Of a stretch of DNA of 64,000 nt, positions 31,126 through 46,019 are shown in pieces. The position numbers and the translations under genes are program-made. The stretch's first letter is position 1, and each line of letters begins with the position of its first letter. The notes beneath the pieces are model-generated. The model saw only the letters and a program-made list of their open reading frames with translations, was not told the origin of the DNA and ran no database searches. The stretch comes from Bdellovibrionales bacterium (GTDB taxonomy: Bacteria; Bdellovibrionota; UBA1018; CAIMNF01), in NCBI GenBank assembly GCA_947502835.1, contig CANNBJ010000001.1, positions 248,001 to 312,000 of the forward strand, read 5' to 3'.

Positions 31126-31144
31126 GCTAATGATAACAATTATC
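31126..31144 (-). promoter_or_regulatory. Fur box upstream of tonB
   Basis: On the minus strand the sequence GATAATTGTTATCATTAGC matches the 19-bp Fur consensus GATAATGATAATCATTATC at 15 of 19 positions. It ends 18 nt before the tonB ATG. Confidence 0.8.
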
Positions 31145-33390: not shown

Positions 33391-33409
33391 GAGAATGATT
33401 ATCATTAGC
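33391..33409 (-). promoter_or_regulatory. Fur box overlapping the start of the receptor gene
   Basis: GAGAATGATTATCATTAGC on the plus strand matches the Fur consensus at 16 of 19 positions. It ends 4 nt before the receptor ATG and overlaps GATAAT, the likely -10 box, so Fur binding would block initiation. Confidence 0.85.
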
Positions 33410-33486: not shown

Positions 33487-34050
33487 TCACTGTTTTCCGG
33501 ACTTGTTTTGAATGTAGATGGAACTCTCAATCCTCATGAGCATGACCGTGCGTCTGGCTCTTTTGATGGATTCCGAAATCTCAGCGGGAATCTGTTCCTG
33601 AGACAAAATCCTGTCCAGGGCTTCATTCAACTGGTTCACTGCGACACCATACTGAATTGCTTTGGTCATCACCTCCTGGATTTCGCCGAGGACTATCGGC
33701 TTGGCCAGGAAGTCAGTGGCATTGAGGCGAATCGCTTCTTGATAACTTTTCGTGTCACCGAAGGCTGTGAGAACCACAAAAGGGATCGGATTGAACCGGG
33801 ATCTGACCCGTGACAGCAATTCCAAGCCGTCCATGCGGGGCATTCTGATGTCGGACAGGATTGCGCAGATCCCGGGCGTGCTTTCCAGAATGCTGAGTGC
33901 CTCCACGCCATTGCCCGCAGTAAGAACCTCATCACAAATGGGTGTCAGCAGCTCAATCAAAAGATCGAGAATCTCAGGCTCATCGTCAACAATCAGCAAT
34001 CTGCGATTTTCCGTGTTTGCGGGTGCTTTTGGCATGAGTGTTTGATTCAT
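33487..34050 (-). CDS. Response regulator with a short C-terminal helical tail, coupled to BLUF
   Basis: A 187-residue protein with a receiver domain (about residues 15-130): acidic pair Asp22-Asp23, phosphoacceptor Asp67 in ILSDIRMPRMDG, Thr95 and Lys117, all conserved. The remaining 55 residues are helical and lack a DNA-binding or enzymatic domain, so it works by protein contact. The ATG overlaps the stop of the BLUF gene (ATGA at 34050-34047), which makes the two proteins products of coupled translation and likely partners. It lies opposite the chemotaxis operon. Confidence 0.88.
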   Translation of the reverse strand: MNQTLMPKAPANTENRRLLIVDDEPEILDLLIELLTPICDEVLTAGNGVEALSILESTPGICAILSDIRMPRMDGLELLSRVRSRFNPIPFVVLTAFGDTKSYQEAIRLNATDFLAKPIVLGEIQEVMTKAIQYGVAVNQLNEALDRILSQEQIPAEISESIKRARRTVMLMRIESSIYIQNKSGKQ

Positions 34051-34445
34051 CTGAACTGCCGCAAGAAATGAAGAGCGGTATCCGCACTCATTCGTGATGG
34101 CTCAAAGGAGCCATTCGGGGAGTATCGCAGTACTTTCTGGTTTGATTCTGAAAGAAGCACCAGCTTCATGTTCCAATCCTCAAACTCCCGCTCCATAATT
34201 TCACTGAAGTCGATCAGGGTAATTTCCTCGTGACGCGGGTCCGATCCAATTCTGTGGAACAGGTGATTTACTTCTTTGCGACCGCCTTCAATGTATTGAA
34301 TGAAACGGTCATCCCCGAACACCAGAGTTCCTGTGATTCCGTTTTTTGGATTATGGCTGAGAGCAGTATTGTGAATTTGAGCAAGCTCACTCGGGTTGGT
34401 GTTTGCTTTCAGCTGACTGGAATAAATGAGGCGGACTAATTGCAT
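34047..34445 (-). CDS. BLUF-domain blue-light photoreceptor
   Basis: A 132-residue single-domain protein of the PixD size class. The FAD-pocket residues line up exactly with PixD numbering: Tyr8, Asn32, Gln50, Trp91 and Met93 (segments LIYSSQ, HNPKNGITG, FIQYIEG, EDWNMKL). BLUF proteins switch hydrogen bonding around the flavin under blue light. The ATG at 34445 is preceded by AAAGGGATC; a frame start 25 codons upstream would add a charged stretch with no homology. It is translationally coupled to the response regulator and divergent from cheA. It is therefore a likely light input to the sensory island. Confidence 0.93.
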   Translation of the reverse strand: MQLVRLIYSSQLKANTNPSELAQIHNTALSHNPKNGITGTLVFGDDRFIQYIEGGRKEVNHLFHRIGSDPRHEEITLIDFSEIMEREFEDWNMKLVLLSESNQKVLRYSPNGSFEPSRMSADTALHFLRQFR

Positions 34446-34798
34446 ATGATCCCTTTGCGTTTGATCCTTACTGTGACCCTTGATCTCACGCCTTGATTGT
34501 ATCTTTCCTCGCATCGGCATCGAAGAAAAAAAATAAAATACGGACCTCCATTTTTGCTGCGCTCGGCGAAGATTTAGATTTCCTCACGAAACCCTTTTGA
34601 AGATTTTTTATTGAATTTAGCTTTTTTTTATGTTTTTGGATTCATAGGTAAAGAGTTTCTAAAGATATCGGTTTGTTTTTTATTTTTCCCGAATGGCAAT
34701 GTTGTTTTTCTCTTTGAATGTAAAAAAAAATGAGTGTTAATTTTTAGGGAGTTGTTTTTATTGCTTCAGTAAATTTCAAACGGTCCCGAAATAAAGGT
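34446..34798. other. AT-rich intergenic region between BLUF and cheA
   Basis: 353 nt with long T and A tracts and no convincing coding sequence. It must carry divergent promoters for the BLUF pair and the chemotaxis operon. I looked for FliA elements and found only partial matches: TAAAGAGT near 34659 without a -10 partner, and GCCGATGC on the minus strand near 34516 with a poor -35. No clear terminator or riboswitch is seen. Confidence 0.5.
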
Positions 34799-37777
34799 AT
34801 GTCATTCTCAAAAGAAGACTTGGAAGAATTCAAACTGGAAGCAAGCGAGATTCTCGAAATTGCGGAGAAGAGCTTGTTCAAGATCGAGAGTGGTGTCGAT
34901 TTCAAGAGTTCCTTTGATGCGGTATTCAGGGCGCTGCACAATCTGAAGGGGGCTGCAGGGATGATGGAGTTGACCTCCTTGCAGAATCACGTGCATGAAA
35001 TCGAAACCATCTTCATGCAGTTCAAGGGTGCGACCGCCATTCCCAAAGTCTATGTGGATTTCTTTCTTCGAGGGATAGACGGGATCAGGACTCTTCTTGC
35101 GGGCGGGGAGATCTCCTTCGATTACAGCCCTCCTGTGGTCGCCGAGTCTGCGAAAATTGAATTGCCCCTTTCGAAGACTGCAGCGCCGGACGCCGGGGCC
35201 AGCCAGGACAACGCAATGGATGAGTTTGTTTCCGAAGGGTTCGAAATGATTGAGAGGGTTTCCAAAGCCCTTGCCCGAATTGAGAAGGAAACTCCTTCCA
35301 AAGAGGTTCTGAACGATTTGTATCGGGATGTTCATTCTTTGAAGGGAGCATCTTATTTATTCGGGTTTTCTTCGATCGGGGACATTTCCCATGCCATGGA
35401 GTCCGCGCTTGAGCCGGTTCGCGAGGGAACCCATGCGCACTCTGTTGAGCTCATGAATCAGCTTTTCAAGGCGATTCGGTTCCTTGAAGTGGAGATGGAC
35501 GGGATCAAGAAGGGAAAGGTTTCTGAAGAGAACAGGGCCTTGGCGCCTGCGCTGGTCAAGGAGTTGGGCAATGCTTGCAGGAACCTTAAATCCAGTACTG
35601 ATTTGGTGGAAATGAAAATGAATACAAAACCAGCTGTCGTTGCCAATGTTCACTCCCAGGCTTCCTCCGAATCGGGAGAGAAGGATTCTGCGAGTTCGAT
35701 TCGGGTTCCAGTCGCACTATTGGACAATCTCATGACCCTGATGGGGGAGATGGTCCTGGTTCGGAATCAGGTTCTTCAATTTTCGAATCATTCAGAGGAT
35801 CTTGATTTTCTGAATCTCAGCAAAAGACTGAATGTGGTCACCAGCGAGATTCAGGGCGAAATGATGAAAACCAGAATGCAGCCGATCGGGAACATCCTGA
35901 ACAAGTACAATCGAGTGGTTCGGGATTTGTCCCAGGAGTTGCGGAAAAATATCACTTTGACTTTGAACGGATCGGAGACTGAACTCGACAAGTCACTCCT
36001 GGAGTCGATCAAGGATCCTCTCACCCACATTGTTCGAAACTCTTGTGATCATGGAATAGAGAGTCCCGAGGCCAGGGCTTCTGCGGGCAAATCCGAGAGT
36101 GGAACCATCAGCATTCGTGCCTATCATGAAGGTGGTCAAGTGGTGATCGAGGTTGCGGATGACGGAAAAGGGCTTCATCGGGATGCTCTTCTTGCCAAAG
36201 CTTTGGAGAAGGGTTTGTTGACCCAAGCCCAGGCCGCGGGCATGAATGACAAAGAAGTGTTCAACCTGATTTTTGCCCCCGGGTTCTCCACAGCGGCCGT
36301 GGTTACGAACGTTTCCGGAAGGGGCGTGGGCATGGATGTCGTACGCACGAACATCGAGAAAATCGGCGGTTCAGTCGAATTGAGCAGTGTTGCTGGTCGG
36401 GGAACCACCACCAAGATCAAGATCCCGCTCACTCTTGCAATCATTCCGGCCCTGATCATCCGGAGCGGAAGCGGGACCTTTGCAATACCCCAGGTGAAGC
36501 TCGAGGAACTTGTGAGGGTGGAAAAGTCCGGGGCCGAGCATAAGATTGAATATCTTCATGGCGCTCCGGTGTTCCGGTTGCGTGGCAATATTCTGCCTCT
36601 GGTGGATCTGAACAAGATCATGGGTGTAAAGAAGAATGGCACCGACTCCCAGGATGCCTTCAATATTGCAATCCTGAGTGCCGATCAGTGTTCTTTTGGA
36701 CTGATCGTCGATGAGATCCAGGATACTGCCGACATTGTGGTCAAGCCTCTGAATCGTTTGTTGCGGTCATTGCAGGTGTATTCGGGGGCTACGATTCTTG
36801 GGGATGGCTCCATCGCATTGATTCTCGACATTCAGGGGATATCCAAAGTAGCACATGTCGGGGCAAGCAAAACCAATAACAAGGTTCAAAGAGTGGATCA
36901 GAAGGTGAGCTCGGACTTCCAGGAGTACCTGCTGGTGGGACTCAACTCGCCCACAAAACATGCATTGGTGTTGGGATATGTGAATCGGCTTGAGGAATTC
37001 AAGCGATCTGCCATCGAAATCTCAGGAAGGAACAGGGTCATTCGGTATGGAAAGAGCATTCTTCCCGTCCTTTCGGTGAGTGAGCTTCTCGGATACGGTA
37101 CATCCAAGCTGAGTTCGGAAAAAGACACTCTTTCAGTGGTCGTGATCCAAAAGGGAGGGGTCTTCTATGGTCTTGAGGTCGATGAGATCATTGATACGCT
37201 CTCCACGGATGCCGATGTGGACTCGGAACTCACCCGTCAAGCGGGCTTTTTCGGGAACCTCAATACCCCGGACGGCCTGATTGTGGCAATTGATCCGTTT
37301 GAGATCATCGGGCTTGCGTATCCCGACTCTGTTTCTGCAGGTAAATCCGATCAGAGTGCTGTGATTCCAATCAAAGGAAAAAAGAAAATGAGACCTCTTC
37401 GAATTCTGCTTGTGGAGGATACGGTGTTTTTCCGAAAGGCCGTGACAATCATCCTCCAGAAAGAGGGCCATGAGGTGACGATTGCAGTGGACGGAAAGGA
37501 AGCAGTTGAGATCCTGAATCGCCATTCGGAAAAGTTCGATCTGATCATTTCAGACATCGAAATGCCAAGAATGAATGGCTTTGAGTTGGCGCAGGCCGTG
37601 AGAGCGAGTCAGGGCTTTTCACTCATCCCTTTGCTTGCCCTGAGTTCCCGGGCGGATAAAAAGTATGCCGAGCAGGGATTGAAAGCCGGATTCAATCGTT
37701 ATCTTGAAAAACTGAAACCCGGACTCTTGATTGAGACGATTTCCGACTTGATGGAAGGCGCAAGGGAGGCGGCATGA
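34799..37777 (+). CDS. cheA: Hybrid chemotaxis histidine kinase CheA with two HPt, two CheW-like and one receiver domain
   Basis: A 992-residue protein. HPt1 has His47 (RALHNLKGAAG), HPt2 has His179 (DVHSLKGASYLFGF). The P3 dimer domain covers about 300-380, and the ATPase domain about 400-545 with N-box NSCDHG and G boxes DDGKG and GRGVGMD. A first CheW-like domain is at about 546-690 and a second at about 705-845. A C-terminal receiver domain covers about 865-990 with Asp919 in IISDIEMPRMNG. CheA phosphorylates CheY and CheB in response to receptors. The extra HPt and the receiver are additions to the classical layout. The cheW start overlaps its stop. The intact acidic pocket suggests the receiver is functional. 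Confidence 0.95.
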   Translation: MSFSKEDLEEFKLEASEILEIAEKSLFKIESGVDFKSSFDAVFRALHNLKGAAGMMELTSLQNHVHEIETIFMQFKGATAIPKVYVDFFLRGIDGIRTLLAGGEISFDYSPPVVAESAKIELPLSKTAAPDAGASQDNAMDEFVSEGFEMIERVSKALARIEKETPSKEVLNDLYRDVHSLKGASYLFGFSSIGDISHAMESALEPVREGTHAHSVELMNQLFKAIRFLEVEMDGIKKGKVSEENRALAPALVKELGNACRNLKSSTDLVEMKMNTKPAVVANVHSQASSESGEKDSASSIRVPVALLDNLMTLMGEMVLVRNQVLQFSNHSEDLDFLNLSKRLNVVTSEIQGEMMKTRMQPIGNILNKYNRVVRDLSQELRKNITLTLNGSETELDKSLLESIKDPLTHIVRNSCDHGIESPEARASAGKSESGTISIRAYHEGGQVVIEVADDGKGLHRDALLAKALEKGLLTQAQAAGMNDKEVFNLIFAPGFSTAAVVTNVSGRGVGMDVVRTNIEKIGGSVELSSVAGRGTTTKIKIPLTLAIIPALIIRSGSGTFAIPQVKLEELVRVEKSGAEHKIEYLHGAPVFRLRGNILPLVDLNKIMGVKKNGTDSQDAFNIAILSADQCSFGLIVDEIQDTADIVVKPLNRLLRSLQVYSGATILGDGSIALILDIQGISKVAHVGASKTNNKVQRVDQKVSSDFQEYLLVGLNSPTKHALVLGYVNRLEEFKRSAIEISGRNRVIRYGKSILPVLSVSELLGYGTSKLSSEKDTLSVVVIQKGGVFYGLEVDEIIDTLSTDADVDSELTRQAGFFGNLNTPDGLIVAIDPFEIIGLAYPDSVSAGKSDQSAVIPIKGKKKMRPLRILLVEDTVFFRKAVTIILQKEGHEVTIAVDGKEAVEILNRHSEKFDLIISDIEMPRMNGFELAQAVRASQGFSLIPLLALSSRADKKYAEQGLKAGFNRYLEKLKPGLLIETISDLMEGAREAA

Positions 37778-38241
37778 ATGACGTTGATTTAAAAACACAA
37801 GAATCAATCCCGGAGTTGTTGACCACCTTCTATGTCGGCAATGAGTATTACGGGATTGAAGTGATGAAGGTGCAGGAGGTGACCGGCACTCCGGTCGTGG
37901 TGCCCGTTCCACTTGCTCCGAACTTTGTCAGAGGATTGATCAATCTGAGAGGGCAACTGGCCACTGCACTCGGGCTCCGTGAGCTGTTTGGTGCAGGCGA
38001 GGCTCAAGTGAATCAACAGATGTCGGTGGTTTGTCGCATGGACGGAAATCTGGTTTCGCTCATCGTGGATCAGATCGGGGATGTGGTGGAGGTGGAGGGC
38101 AGGATTTTTGAGGATCCACCGGATACCTTGCCCCCGGGAATCAGAAAGTATGTGAAAGGGATCTATAAGATGGATGACTCCCTGCTGAGTTTGCTTGATA
38201 TGGAGAAGATCACAAGAGAGCTTGCACCGAACCTTGAATGA
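37774..38241 (+). CDS. cheW: Chemotaxis adaptor CheW
   Basis: A 155-residue CheW. Key segments are the first strand (TTFYVGNEYYGIEVMKVQEV), VRGLINLRGQ (about residues 52-61) at the receptor interface, and LIVDQIGDVVEV near 90, then VKGIYKMDDSLLSLLDMEKI. CheW links receptors to CheA. Its ATG overlaps the cheA stop (ATGA at 37774-37777), so expression is coupled. Together with the two CheW-like domains inside CheA, it is the third copy of this fold in the operon. The downstream receptor gene starts 31 nt later. Confidence 0.95.
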   Translation: MNDVDLKTQESIPELLTTFYVGNEYYGIEVMKVQEVTGTPVVVPVPLAPNFVRGLINLRGQLATALGLRELFGAGEAQVNQQMSVVCRMDGNLVSLIVDQIGDVVEVEGRIFEDPPDTLPPGIRKYVKGIYKMDDSLLSLLDMEKITRELAPNLE

Positions 38242-38272
38242 ATTTAGGAACGACAAAAAATAGGAGAAAAAA

Positions 38273-40216
38273 ATGGAAAATACAGCAATGGTTTATGAAA
38301 ACACACGGATTGAGAACAAGACAGGCGAGGATTCTTCGAATTTGAAGGCGATCGTCTCTGCAATTGATCGCGCGCAGGCCGTGATTGAGTTCAAACTGGA
38401 TGGAACTGTCATCAATGCAAACGAGAATTTCTTGAAAACCATGGGCTACAGCCTGGCCGAAATCAAAGGGGCCCATCACCAGATGTTTTGCGAACCGAGC
38501 TTTACCCAAACACCCGAATACGTACAATTCTGGGCAAAACTCGGGCAGGGCGAGTTCCAGACCGGAGAGTTCAAAAGAGTGGGAAAGGGCGGCCGTGAGG
38601 TCTGGATCATGGCCTCGTACAGCCCTGTCCTTGGTGAGGATGGAAAGCCCTGCAAGGTGATCAAGTTCGCAACCGACGTGACCGCCGCAAAGTCTGAGCT
38701 TAAAGTAAGAACTGACATCATGAATCTGACGAGCATTGTTTCAGAGGCCAACCTTAAGGGCGACATTCTGAGCGTGAACGACAAGTTCTGTGAGGTATCG
38801 AAGTATTCCAAAGAGGAATTGATCGGCAAACCCCACAATACCACCCGCCATCCGGATATGCCAAAAGAGGTGTTCAAGGAACTGTGGGGTACCATTGGGC
38901 GCGGGAAAATTTTCCGTGGCATCGTGAAGAACAGGGCGAAAGATGGAACTCCCTACTATGTCGATGCTGTGATCGCTCCCATCATGGGAGAAAACGGGAA
39001 GCCGAAAAAGTACCTCGGAGTCCGATACGACATCACAGAGGCTGAAATTGAACGCCAGAACATGCGTGGTCTTTTCCGCGCAATTGATGCTTCATTTGCC
39101 TACATAGAATTTGATACTTCGGGCAATATCCTGAGCGCCAACAAGATTTTTCAGGAGGCCATGGGCTATTCACCTGAGGAGCTGAAAAACAGGCACCACA
39201 GGACCTTCTGTGAGCAGTCGTTGTCGAGCTCCTCTGAGTATGCCCAGTTTTGGGAGAATCTCAGGTCTGGCAAGGCCCAGAGCGGTATTTTCAAGCGCGT
39301 CACGAAGTCGGGAAAAGAGATCTGGTTGCAAGCCGTCTATTCACCGGTGACCGATGAGACAGGTCGGGTATCCAAGGTTGTGAAAATTGCTACCGATGTT
39401 ACGGGCCAGCAAAAAATGATTTTCTCGATTCAGGAGACGGCGACTGCGCTTTCGGCCGCATCAAATGAATTGACTGCAACTGCGACTGAGATGACCAACA
39501 CGGCAAACAGGACGAATCAGGAGTCCCAATCCGCAGCTGCCGCCTCCGAAGAGGTTGCAACCGGGGTTCAGACTGTTGCCACCAACATGGAGGAAATGGT
39601 TGCGTCGATCAAGGAGATTTCCAGGTCCACAAATGAGTCTTCCCAAATGGCGAAACTCACCATGCAAAAGGCCCAGGAGTCGAATACGACGATTGTCAAG
39701 CTGGGTGTGAGCAGCCAGGAAATTGGTGACGTGATCAAGGTGATCAGTTCCATCGCTCAACAGACCAATCTCCTTGCCTTGAATGCAACCATCGAAGCTG
39801 CAAGGGCTGGAGAAGCCGGAAAGGGATTTGCCGTTGTTGCAAACGAAGTAAAGGAGCTTGCCAAGCAAACTGCGAAAGCAACAAACGATATCACGAACAA
39901 GATCGGTGCGATTCAAGGTGATACCAAGAATGCGGTCGAGGCTATTGGCGGGATTTCACTTGCGGTGGAAAAACTGAATGGGATTGCCGGAGTGATTGCT
40001 GCCGCGGTCGAGGAGCAAACTGCCACAACCAATGAGATTTCAAGAGTTGTGGTCGAGTCCAAGAAAGGAGTCGAGAGCATCGCAAGCACTGTCCGCACGG
40101 TATCAATGGCGTCTGTGGAAAGTACGGCCGCGTCGAATCAAACCCTTGCTGCGTCCAAGGAGCTTGCGATTCTTGCAGAGAAGCTCAATGCTCTGGTCAA
40201 GAGTACGAGCAAATGA
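38273..40216 (+). CDS. Soluble methyl-accepting chemotaxis protein with three PAS domains, including an Aer-type PAS
   Basis: A 647-residue chemoreceptor with no transmembrane segment. PAS1 is at about residues 24-137, PAS2 at about 145-265 and PAS3 at about 270-388, followed by a helical linker and the MCP signalling domain (about 400-640) with the hairpin core [33 protein letters not shown]2 has the Aer-like pattern [24 protein letters not shown] and [15 protein letters not shown], which in Aer binds FAD and reports redox state. It probably senses cytoplasmic redox or oxygen. AGGAGA precedes the ATG. The cheB start overlaps its stop. Confidence 0.93.
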
Positions 40217-41319
40217 GGAGACTCAGGGTACTCGTCGTAGATGATTCGGTTATTTATCGAAGTCAGATTCGGAATGCCCTCGCTGACCTGCCATGGATTG
40301 AGATTACCGGTGTGGCCTCAAATGGCAGGTTGGCCTTGGAGCGGATTCAACTTGTGGATGTCGATTTGGTGATTCTTGACCTCGAGATGCCGGAAATGAA
40401 CGGCATGGAATTGCTCAGGGAAATGAAGTCGCGCAATCTGGTGATCCCGGTCCTTGTTTTCTCTTCCGCTTCAAAAAGGGGCGCCGAGACCACCCTGGAA
40501 GCGCTCGGGCTTGGGGCGATCGACTTCATCCCGAAACCCGGGACCGATGCCGCGGACGCGAGCGCCCTTCATGAATCCGATCCCGCAGGGAGGATCAAAG
40601 GTCTGCTATTGCCGAAAATCCTTGGTTTGTTTCCAGAGATGGAAAAAAACGGTTTGGCGACTGTTTCAAAGCCTTTTCCACGGAAGTATGAAAAAGTGGT
40701 GATTGACCGGTTCCAGCCAAAAGTGATCGTGATCGGATCTTCCACAGGGGGACCCACGGTTCTTGAATCCATCTTTTCGAGGATTTCGGCACCTCTTCGA
40801 TGTCCGATTCTGATCACCCAGCACATGCCCCCGATTTTCACGGCAACTCTTGCGGAAAGAATCCAAAGAATCAGCGGGATTCCAACCTTCGAGGCAAAAC
40901 ACAATCAAGTGATTGATCCAAGTTCCATCTACATCGCCCCCGGGAACTTTCATATGCGGATCAAAAATGAGAATGGGGTTTTGATCACAGCGCTGGATCA
41001 GGGTCCGCTTGAAAATTCTGTGAGGCCCGCAGTGGATCCCTTGTTTCAGAGTGCGGCAAGTCTTTACGGGAGCGGATGCCTCGGGATTGTTCTTACCGGG
41101 ATGGGCGCAGACGGGAGACTCGGCGCCGAACGGATCAAGGAAACAGGGGGGGCGGTATTGATTCAAAGTGAGGAATCTTGTGTGGTTTTCGGGATGCCAG
41201 GAGCAGTGATGTCGGTGGGGGCCTACGATCAGATTCTGAGTCCGGATCAAATCGTAGAGGTACTGCGGGAGAAGGCGGTTTCCGGAATCGGGATTAAATC
41301 AGGTCGGCTTTATGCGTGA
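40213..41319 (+). CDS. cheB: Chemotaxis protein-glutamate methylesterase CheB
   Basis: A 368-residue CheB. The N-terminal receiver has Asp10-Asp11 and phosphoacceptor Asp56; the C-terminal methylesterase has the triad Ser177 (GSSTGGP), His204 (TQHMPP) and Asp300 (GMGADG). It removes methyl groups from receptor glutamates when phosphorylated by CheA. The ATG overlaps the stop of the receptor gene (ATGA), and its stop lies just before the cheY start. All residues for catalysis are intact and length is normal. Confidence 0.96.
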
Positions 41320-41329
41320 GGGTGAAACT

Positions 41330-41713
41330 ATGTTTCGAGTGTTGATTGTGGATGATACGAGGTCGGTGCATGCATTTGTGAAGAATCTTCTGTTGAAGTC
41401 ACCCGGGATTGAAGTGACCAGTGTGTATCATGGAGAAGAGGCCATTGAGGTTTTGAAACAGAAGGGGGATTTCGACCTCATCCTGTTGGATTGGGAAATG
41501 CCGGTGCTCAATGGGCCGGAGACCCTGCAAGCCATCAAGACAATGCAACTGAAAACACCTGTGATCATGATGACGACCAAAAATGACCCCGATGACATCC
41601 AAAGAATGTTTTCTTTGGGGATTCATGAGTATTTGATGAAGCCGTTCACCATAGACATTCTGTTTCAGAAAATCGAATGGGTGTCTGGAAGGACATTCTC
41701 GTATGCAGCATGA
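41330..41713 (+). CDS. cheY: CheY-type single-domain response regulator
   Basis: A 127-residue receiver with Asp8-Asp9, phosphoacceptor Asp54 (LLDWEMPVLNG), a Thr in MMTTKND and Lys in LMKPF. It has no output domain and should carry the CheA signal to the flagellar motor. The ATG at 41330 is preferred: GAGGGTG lies 6-12 nt upstream, while the ATG at 41312 would extend the protein by six residues and overlap cheB. It overlaps cheR by 11 nt, so the three terminal genes of the operon are coupled. Confidence 0.9.
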   Translation: MFRVLIVDDTRSVHAFVKNLLLKSPGIEVTSVYHGEEAIEVLKQKGDFDLILLDWEMPVLNGPETLQAIKTMQLKTPVIMMTTKNDPDDIQRMFSLGIHEYLMKPFTIDILFQKIEWVSGRTFSYAA

Positions 41714-42545
41714 GCGGATTTTGCCTTATTTTGCAAAGTACATAGAGTCTGAGCTCGGTATTGTTTACGCAGAGCACAACTATTTTCAGCTTCAAAACCG
41801 GCTCGAAGAAATTGCCAAGCTGCTTTCCGTGGAGTCACTTGAAAAGCTCTACAAACTTGCCGAAACCGGCATTACAGGACAGTTCAAACAGTTGTTGTTG
41901 GATCTGGCAACCAACAATGAGACTTCTTTTTTCCGGGACATGAAGGTTTTCAAAGCGATTGAAAATCTGGTTTTACCAGGCTTTCTTCAAAATGAACCAA
42001 GTGGAGCCGAGATGCGAATCTGGTCCGGAGCCAGCTCAACGGGCCAGGAAGCATTGTCGCTTTCGATCATGATCACGGAATGGAACTTGAGATCTCCGAA
42101 GCCCATTCGGTATTCCATCCTTGGAACAGATATCTCCGAGAGAATTCTGCTTCGGGCGAAAAAAGCCGAGTACAGTCAACTTGAGGTGCAGCGCGGTCTG
42201 CCGACTCCGTTTTTGCTGAAGTACTTTCAAAAAAATGAACAAGACCGGTGGACAGCGAGTCCGTCCATCACCAAAGCCTTGGAATTCAGAAAACAGAACC
42301 TTTTGGATCCGTTTGAGTTTGCCGGGAAGTTCCATCTGATTTTACTTCGAAATGTACTGATCTATCAGCCCCTTTCGAACAAGATTGAGATTTTAAAGAG
42401 GGTCACCGAAAAACTTGCGCCGGGTGGAGTGCTGATCCTTGGTTCAGGCGAGAGTCTTTTGGGGCTTTCCAGTGATTACTCTCAAACCGCTTATGAAGGT
42501 GCTGTGATTTACCTGAAAAAGGGGACTCAGCAGTCGGTTGCGTAG
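41703..42545 (+). CDS. cheR: Chemotaxis protein methyltransferase CheR
   Basis: A 280-residue S-adenosylmethionine-dependent methyltransferase. The N-terminal CheR helical domain includes NNETSFFRD near residue 78; the SAM-binding motif is WSGASSTGQEALSLS near 108-122; LLRNVLIY is the conserved strand near 217. It methylates receptor glutamates and opposes CheB. It overlaps cheY by 11 nt and ends the operon cheA-cheW-mcp-cheB-cheY-cheR. A hairpin with T-rich flanks downstream (42622-42646) could end transcription. Confidence 0.95.
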   Translation: MQHERILPYFAKYIESELGIVYAEHNYFQLQNRLEEIAKLLSVESLEKLYKLAETGITGQFKQLLLDLATNNETSFFRDMKVFKAIENLVLPGFLQNEPSGAEMRIWSGASSTGQEALSLSIMITEWNLRSPKPIRYSILGTDISERILLRAKKAEYSQLEVQRGLPTPFLLKYFQKNEQDRWTASPSITKALEFRKQNLLDPFEFAGKFHLILLRNVLIYQPLSNKIEILKRVTEKLAPGGVLILGSGESLLGLSSDYSQTAYEGAVIYLKKGTQQSVA

Positions 42546-44660: not shown

Positions 44661-46019
44661 TTGACAGCTCGAAACATCAAAATCCTGGTCGCATTCAGGG
44701 ATGATCCGGTACGGAATCTCGTGGTTCAGAACCTCAGATTCCGCATCAAGGATGCAAAAGACATTCATGAAATGAGGAGCATGGAAGAGGCGATCGAGCA
44801 CTTGGAAACCGGAAGGGAGGATTACGGATTGATCGTATTCGAATCCCGCGGATCCTCGAAAACCCTGGTCCGTGCCGTGATTGAGCTTTCCAAAAGAGCC
44901 GCAGTCATCGTGTGCGGGACCGATGAGCGAGTGGTCTCTGATTTCAATGGTTCGGAAATGCCGGTGGTCTTTCTTCCTTTGGATTCGGTTCAGGATGATC
45001 TCTCGAAAACCGTGAAGTCGCTCGAGCTTTCAGGAAAAATCCCCCTCTTTCAGGAAAGTGAAAGCGAGTATCTCGGAATTCGCGCGGATCTTCTTCCGAC
45101 TCTTGGCGTTCTTCAAGCCGATGTCTTCATGCTGATTCTGGACGGAAGGTATGTGCCGATTTTCAAGAAAGGGGATCGGATCACCGAGGCCGATGTACGG
45201 CATTTTCTCGAAAAGGTGCCCGGTCAGACGTTCTATTTCAGAAAAAGCGAGTGTGGCGAGGTTCTTCAATCGAGAATTCAGAGACTGGAGAGCGCTCTTC
45301 AGGAAATTCCGATCAATACGGCTAAGGTTGAGCAAGTCATCACCGAAAATTTCGGCATTGTCCGTGATGTGGTAAGCCAGATCGGCTTTACGCCGGAGGC
45401 ACAGAGGGTGGCGGTGAACAGTGTGCTCCTTACGATCAAAATGCTCGGGGCGAGTCCGAAACTGAAATCAATACTCTCCGATTTGAAAGAATCGGGTGGA
45501 GGATACATCCCGTCTCACAGCATCTATCTCGGGAAGGTCGCCTGCGCTCTGGCTCACAAGGTCGGTTGGCGCTCCCAATCGACCTACTTCAAGCTGAGTT
45601 TGGCCGCGTTTCTTCATGACATCTCGCTCAAGGAGGATCGCCTTGCGGAGGTCTCGAACCTCGAGCAGTTCGAGAAATCGGGAAGTGGGTTGCCCGAGGA
45701 GATCCGGGAGATTCGCGTTCATCCGGCTCGATCCGCCGAGTACGCCCGGCAGTTCCAGGAAATTCCCTCCGAAGTGGAACAGATTGTGGCACAGCACCAT
45801 GAGCGCCCGGATGGCTCAGGCTTTCCTCGCGGACTCGTGGTTCGGTACTTTACTCCGCTCAGTGCGCTCTTTGTGATTGCCCAGGATTTGATCGAGTACG
45901 GGAATACGGCAAACGAGCTCACTTTTGAACATTTTTTCGAGGAAAAAGGACTTGAATACAATGTCGGGATCTTTCGAAAGCTCGCGAGGGCGATTCAAAC
46001 CGACACTACTCTGATTTGA
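44661..46019 (+). CDS. HD-GYP-like domain protein with an N-terminal pseudo-receiver region
   Basis: A 452-residue protein. Residues 1 to about 120 resemble a receiver fold (IKILVAFRDDPV ... DYGLIVFESRG), but the phosphoacceptor Asp is Glu and other key residues are missing. The C-terminal half has an HD-type domain: AAFLHDISLKED, with HDIS where HDIGK is expected, and AQHHERPDGSGFPRGL, close to HHExxDGxGYP but with Phe for Tyr. The family hydrolyses c-di-GMP, and Bdellovibrio has a described unconventional HD-GYP (Bd1817) lacking the Tyr. Activity here is uncertain. The apparent start is TTG at 44661 with GGGGGG about 8 nt upstream. Ends overlap scpB by 14 nt. Confidence 0.78.
   Translation: MTARNIKILVAFRDDPVRNLVVQNLRFRIKDAKDIHEMRSMEEAIEHLETGREDYGLIVFESRGSSKTLVRAVIELSKRAAVIVCGTDERVVSDFNGSEMPVVFLPLDSVQDDLSKTVKSLELSGKIPLFQESESEYLGIRADLLPTLGVLQADVFMLILDGRYVPIFKKGDRITEADVRHFLEKVPGQTFYFRKSECGEVLQSRIQRLESALQEIPINTAKVEQVITENFGIVRDVVSQIGFTPEAQRVAVNSVLLTIKMLGASPKLKSILSDLKESGGGYIPSHSIYLGKVACALAHKVGWRSQSTYFKLSLAAFLHDISLKEDRLAEVSNLEQFEKSGSGLPEEIREIRVHPARSAEYARQFQEIPSEVEQIVAQHHERPDGSGFPRGLVVRYFTPLSALFVIAQDLIEYGNTANELTFEHFFEEKGLEYNVGIFRKLARAIQTDTTLI

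Follow-up and report, generated by a model that had tools for sequence, protein, structure and literature searches.

The stretch of DNA analysed here (64,000 nucleotides, hereafter the window) carries on its minus strand a gene for a predicted BLUF photoreceptor of the short PixD type (34047-34445, minus strand, 132 aa), which begins with an ATG at 34445-34443 and ends at 34047. Its last four bases (ATGA, 34047-34050, minus strand) form a start-stop overlap with the next gene, which encodes a receiver protein with a helical tail of about 60 residues (33487-34050, minus strand, 187 aa). An intergenic region (34446-34798) leaves 353 bases between the BLUF start and the cheA start, and beyond it a complete che operon in the order cheA-cheW-PAS/MCP-cheB-cheY-cheR (34799-42545, plus strand) diverges from the pair. 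When aligned with the same region of two congeners, G011 and G003, the intergenic region had a mean column identity of 71%, with the highest conservation beside both starts. The operon encodes, all on the plus strand, a CheA of 992 aa (34799-37777; Hpt1-Hpt2-dimerization-HATPase-CheW-receiver by Pfam), a CheW (37774-38241, 155 aa; Pfam CheW, 4.4e-27), a chemoreceptor with three PAS domains (38273-40216, 647 aa; Pfam PAS_3 three times and MCPsignal), a CheB methylesterase (40213-41319, 368 aa; NCBIfam PRK00742, 342.8 bits against a cut-off of 293), a CheY (41312-41713, 133 aa; Pfam Response_reg, 4.6e-28) that clusters with other operon CheYs in the receiver tree, and a CheR methyltransferase (41703-42545, 280 aa; NCBIfam CheR, 9.1e-26). 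A previous sequence-only reading of this DNA had given the coordinates and the four-base overlap exactly, and its claim of a divergent and complete che operon was borne out by the identification of all six genes with Pfam or NCBIfam. The same genome contains flagellar FliM/FliN, several pilus-type or secretion ATPases and two further CheA genes. Downstream of the operon lies a gene for an HD_5-domain protein (44661-46019), whose product has 29% identity to a receiver-HD protein encoded beside CheR in a che cluster of another genome of the phylum (L229, in G172).

BLUF (PF04940) was the only Pfam family found in the photoreceptor protein (E 1e-28, 99.7 bits against a cut-off of 25), and the genome has one BLUF gene. 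The translation contains the photocycle residues Tyr8, Asn32 and Gln50 as well as Trp91 and Met93, the same five residues that had been picked out beforehand. The best solved relative in a phmmer search was Synechocystis Slr1694/PixD (E 7.7e-22, residues 1-129), followed by other PixD-type proteins, and the alignment to PixD runs the full length of the protein, the C-terminal part included. In a tree of 56 BLUF proteins of the phylum together with PixD, the window protein fell within the PixD-containing clade (support 97/99). Homology and phylogeny both indicate a PixD-type short BLUF.

CheA itself (34799-37777) carries Hpt domains of two origins. In the Hpt tree, Hpt1 groups with the Hpt domains of separate Hpt-receiver proteins of relatives (94/84), as if it had been fused from such a protein, and Hpt2 is an ordinary CheA Hpt (94/95). 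This double Hpt suggests a phosphorelay more elaborate than the classical scheme, one that would offer a natural phosphate donor to an additional receiver.

On the other side of the pair are a TonB-dependent receptor gene (33386-31293, minus strand) and a TonB-like gene (31146-30508, minus strand). Fur-box-like sites with two to three mismatches, of which 0.03 are expected per window, lie ahead of the former (33391-33409) and at the start of the latter (31126-31144), and the two genes with their sites look like an ordinary iron-uptake unit.

The tailed receiver and its relatives

The receiver protein has Response_reg as its sole Pfam family (E 4.4e-22), and its active site is intact (D22/D23, D67, T95 and K117), as the sequence-only reading had maintained for the phosphorylation site. 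An AlphaFold model (mean pLDDT 85.8) has a normal receiver fold in which the last helix, alpha-5, is stretched to 30 residues and is followed by one extra helix; in the numbering of the model, which is the residue of the full protein minus one, the long helix spans 120-149 and the second 155-171. The description of a short tail without recognised output also stood, since this two-helix region of about 60 aa has no Pfam family, and a search of the tail alone against Pfam gave no family match. A PATAN domain was absent by Pfam from both the whole protein and the tail alone. We rejected an ANTAR or other known output domain because the tail had no Pfam match and full-length alignments to FixJ and EutV were at 8-11 Å rmsd; these two were the best structure matches, and only the receiver fold is meaningful in them.

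The receiver tree unites the window protein with tailed receivers of relatives within the order (support 95/87). We label this clade RRt, defined in this analysis by a receiver with a tail of about 55-60 aa, membership of the supported clade and a che neighbourhood. The window receiver has all of these, and linkage to che genes was found for every member of the clade except G012. Four members occur in loci that have no BLUF: one adjoins CheR-CheB (L128), one lies between MCP/CheW and CheA (L129), one between CheW and CheA (L130), and one overlaps CheA (L131). An RRt receiver with 39% identity also lies by a homologous CheA cluster in L247 (G320), and the orthologue in G012, with 52% identity, is an orphan remote from che genes. 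Searching the contigs of the genomes with the receiver as query returned generic receivers, and no BLUF was present at any such locus. Since relatives without BLUF also have RRt members in their che clusters, the receiver would appear to be the chemosensory part of the pair and BLUF a later addition to it.

Two other origins for the receiver were considered. It is not the CheY of the operon, which is encoded at 41312-41713; the window receiver sits in the separate RRt clade (95/87) and has the tail. The receiver might also be one half of an Hpt-receiver protein that was split. Hpt1 of CheA does group with such proteins, but the receiver falls in RRt and not with their receivers; a joint grouping, at a p-AU of 0.067, is not clearly rejected.

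Conservation in the genus and linkage across the phylum

BLUF is present in three of the 12 species of the genus, namely the window genome, G011 and G003, and in all three the BLUF-receiver pair is kept with a divergent cheA. The synteny that the sequence-only reading had proposed to check in homologues thus holds wherever a window-type BLUF was found. Identities among the three genomes are 67-79% for BLUF, 60-73% for the receiver and about 80% for CheA. The proposal that the ATGA overlap couples partner genes survived in part: the overlap is there in the window and close co-directional spacing is kept, but the overlap itself is absent from G011 and G003, the distances from BLUF to receiver being -4, 0 and +9 bases in the window, G011 and G003 respectively. 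The conserved feature is the tight co-directional spacing and not the ATGA overlap. The far flank of the pair varies: the window has a TonB receptor there, G003 an RND pump and G011 another gene. Comparisons between congeners gave a dN of 0.13-0.34 for BLUF and receiver with synonymous sites saturated (pS 0.74-0.91), so both genes are under strong purifying selection. The other nine congeners have neither a BLUF nor a close CheA orthologue (in G002, G005 and G007, CheA is at only about 50% identity), so the BLUF-RRt-cheA arrangement is a trait of one subclade. The combination of BLUF and RRt in just three species of one genus may reflect a single event.

Across a set of 369 genomes of the phylum, which by genome make-up is probably Bdellovibrionota, BLUF was found in 68, a homologous CheA in 85 and both in 26. 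A BLUF gene adjoins a che operon homologous to that of the window in G142, G157 and G172, it adjoins an Hpt-receiver gene in G172 and G088, and in G174 and G058 its direct neighbour is an Hpt gene, without any receiver. The BLUF of G157 is truncated at a contig end, which left too little of it for the tree; those of G142, G172, G174 and G058 belong to a deep clade separate from that of the window BLUF, and that of G088 lies inside the PixD-containing clade. Given these distinct positions, the association of BLUF with chemosensory genes appears to have arisen at least twice.

Of 59 BLUF loci, 9 have an Hpt domain within 2.5 kb, where a mean density of two Hpt domains per megabase would predict about 0.6. 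As loci that share a lineage are not independent of each other, the linkage was also counted by lineage, which gave a Poisson probability of about 4e-4 for about five lineages and about 0.004 for the four outside the window genus. All these figures are rough, in that the rate is the mean of 14 genomes, nine of them chosen for carrying the linkage. BLUF is near a receiver of any kind at 13 of the 59 loci, which was judged to be near expectation for receiver-rich genomes and was set aside; it is the linkage to Hpt and che genes, rather than to any receiver, that is informative. Most of the CheA-bearing genomes inspected (85 of 369 carry that CheA) have no BLUF beside it.

The majority of BLUF genes in the phylum have unrelated neighbours, such as the MaoC-like genes in genus g89, where at five loci (L181, L187, L191, L196 and L215) BLUF comes closely after a gene whose product is about 140 aa long and, in L181, MaoC-like by Pfam; the two are a candidate functional pairing. 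Three other layouts were seen. In L218 (3704-5274), and also in L232, an Hpt gene runs with an ATGA overlap into a BLUF gene that is extended by about 110 residues at its N-terminal end. In L217 (1-2958), a PAS-histidine kinase frame and a receiver frame are followed, with an ATGA overlap, by a BLUF that has about 65 additional residues at its N terminus. In L204 (4813-5788), BLUF diverges from a gene for a bacterial-type globin, and a receiver-Hpt-CheA gene comes directly after the globin gene, a layout that possibly combines light and oxygen input.

A putative light input to the chemosensory system

The gene pair, its intact active sites, its synteny, the che-linked clade of the receiver and the PixD type of the BLUF were all established by computation. 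With these in hand we lean, by a little better than even judgement, towards a reading in which BLUF and the tailed receiver form a light input to the chemosensory system analogous to the PixD-PixE pair of Synechocystis. The BLUF protein would bind the receiver in a light-dependent manner, and binding would alter the pool of free, phosphorylatable receiver. Free receiver could then compete for, or drain, phosphate from Hpt1 and Hpt2 of the CheA encoded next to it, or alternatively could reach a target of its own helical tail. Blue light, by its intensity rather than its direction, would in this way shift CheA-CheY signalling and thereby swimming or pilus-based motility. The direct contact between BLUF and receiver, the phosphotransfer from CheA and the behavioural output are what we infer from the arrangement. 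Against this reading stand the restriction of the BLUF-RRt combination to three species, the lack of a BLUF beside the homologous CheA in most genomes inspected, the orphan orthologue of G012 and the missing PATAN domain. Only tentatively do we put forward a broader proposal, that in this phylum of probably predatory or heterotrophic bacteria BLUF proteins were drawn into chemosensory phosphorelays on at least two occasions, with direct contact to Hpt or receiver proteins as the gating step. Blue-light motility control of this class would be CheA-coupled and non-photosynthetic.

A light-responsive pair could instead have its output outside the che system, acting through the tail on, for example, a transcription factor, a c-di-GMP enzyme or a pilus motor, and be a neighbour of the che operon by way of the shared divergent promoter region. 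The tail without a known output domain, the G012 orthologue remote from che genes, the several pilus-type ATPases of the genome and the action of PixE on pili without CheA are all consistent with such an output. We nevertheless think it unlikely, given that RRt receivers without BLUF lie within the che clusters of four other genera and that BLUF-che or BLUF-Hpt linkage recurs in other lineages above chance.

In the window genus the immediate conserved partner of BLUF is the receiver, and the characterised partner of a PixD-type protein is a response regulator. Both observations argue against a direct action of BLUF on the Hpt/array module of CheA or on the PAS chemoreceptor, with the receiver as a co-transcribed phosphate sink. 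This explanation, which we regard as quite improbable, could account for the BLUF genes that abut an Hpt gene without a receiver (G174 and G058) and for those that have CheA or MCP genes but no RRt beside them (G142 and G157).

That the genes are neutral neighbours, the pair having landed by the che operon once with rearrangement yet to come, would agree with the restriction of the arrangement to three species of one genus. It is very unlikely, however, since the other flank has been altered while the BLUF-receiver-cheA junction is intact, synonymous sites are saturated and the linkage is found again in other clades. Iron control in the manner of BlsA, which is reported to act through Fur in Acinetobacter (PMC5955987), draws on the Fur-box-like site at 33391-33409 (two mismatches) and the TonB receptor just downstream of the pair, but we rejected this link as extremely improbable because the receptor does not adjoin the pair in G011 or G003, a lack of synteny that weakens the reading.

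If the proposed light input to the chemosensory system is correct, the PixD-PixE principle, in which a BLUF controls a partner response regulator through contact, would reach beyond the pilus phototaxis of cyanobacteria to CheA-based chemosensing in non-phototrophs. The BLUF genes of the phylum, otherwise without an assigned role, would gain one that can be tested. The small soluble parts (132 aa and 187 aa) are suited to the study of a flavin switch feeding a phosphorelay.

Relation to known light-sensing systems

The sequence-only reading knew of no described system of this shape. That claim has to be withdrawn, as PixD-PixE of Synechocystis, whose genes form a putative operon, pairs a BLUF protein with a response regulator to control phototaxis, and the window BLUF is of the PixD type. 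PixD holds PixE in the dark, and strong blue light frees PixE and changes the direction of pilus-driven movement; the C-terminal part of PixD is needed for the PixD dimer and for the complex with PixE, and PixE is a CheY-PATAN protein, non-phosphorylatable according to a review, that acts on pili (PMC5812497, PMC5899715). As in that system, the window genome, G011 and G003 have a short PixD-type BLUF with an adjacent response regulator gene on the same strand. The gene order differs, pixE being first in its operon and BLUF first in the window. Unlike PixE, the window receiver has an N-terminal receiver domain with its Asp intact, a short helical tail and no PATAN domain, and unlike PixD-PixE the pair lies beside a CheA operon and takes its receiver from a che-linked family. 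Since the partner lacks a PATAN domain and has an intact phosphorylation site, the window pair is not a strict member of the PixD-PixE group, and without the PATAN domain the contact surface of PixE is not simply transferable to the window receiver.

Light input to chemotaxis has been described elsewhere with other photoreceptors. In Rhodocista centenaria, Ppr (PYP-bilin-histidine kinase) is a photosensor that feeds the CheAY/CheW chemotaxis system (PMC2993699). In this it resembles the putative light input of the window, yet Ppr belongs to another photoreceptor family and binds CheW through its kinase domain. Multidomain MCP-PYP proteins are light receptors tied to chemotaxis signalling, as inferred from genomes (PMC12826048); in these the photoreceptor, which is no BLUF, forms one protein with the receptor, and a partner receiver is lacking. 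Like the window BLUF, the BlsA protein of Acinetobacter is a stand-alone short BLUF; it works by protein contact, but is reported to target Fur, with no receiver partner or che context (PMC5955987). For BLUF in the che clusters of this phylum we found no paper in the open-access literature, to which the search was confined. Light input to chemotaxis and a BLUF with a partner response regulator are thus already known; what appears to be new here, as judged from sequence, is a phosphorylatable partner that lacks PATAN, belongs to a che-linked family and is encoded beside a CheA operon.
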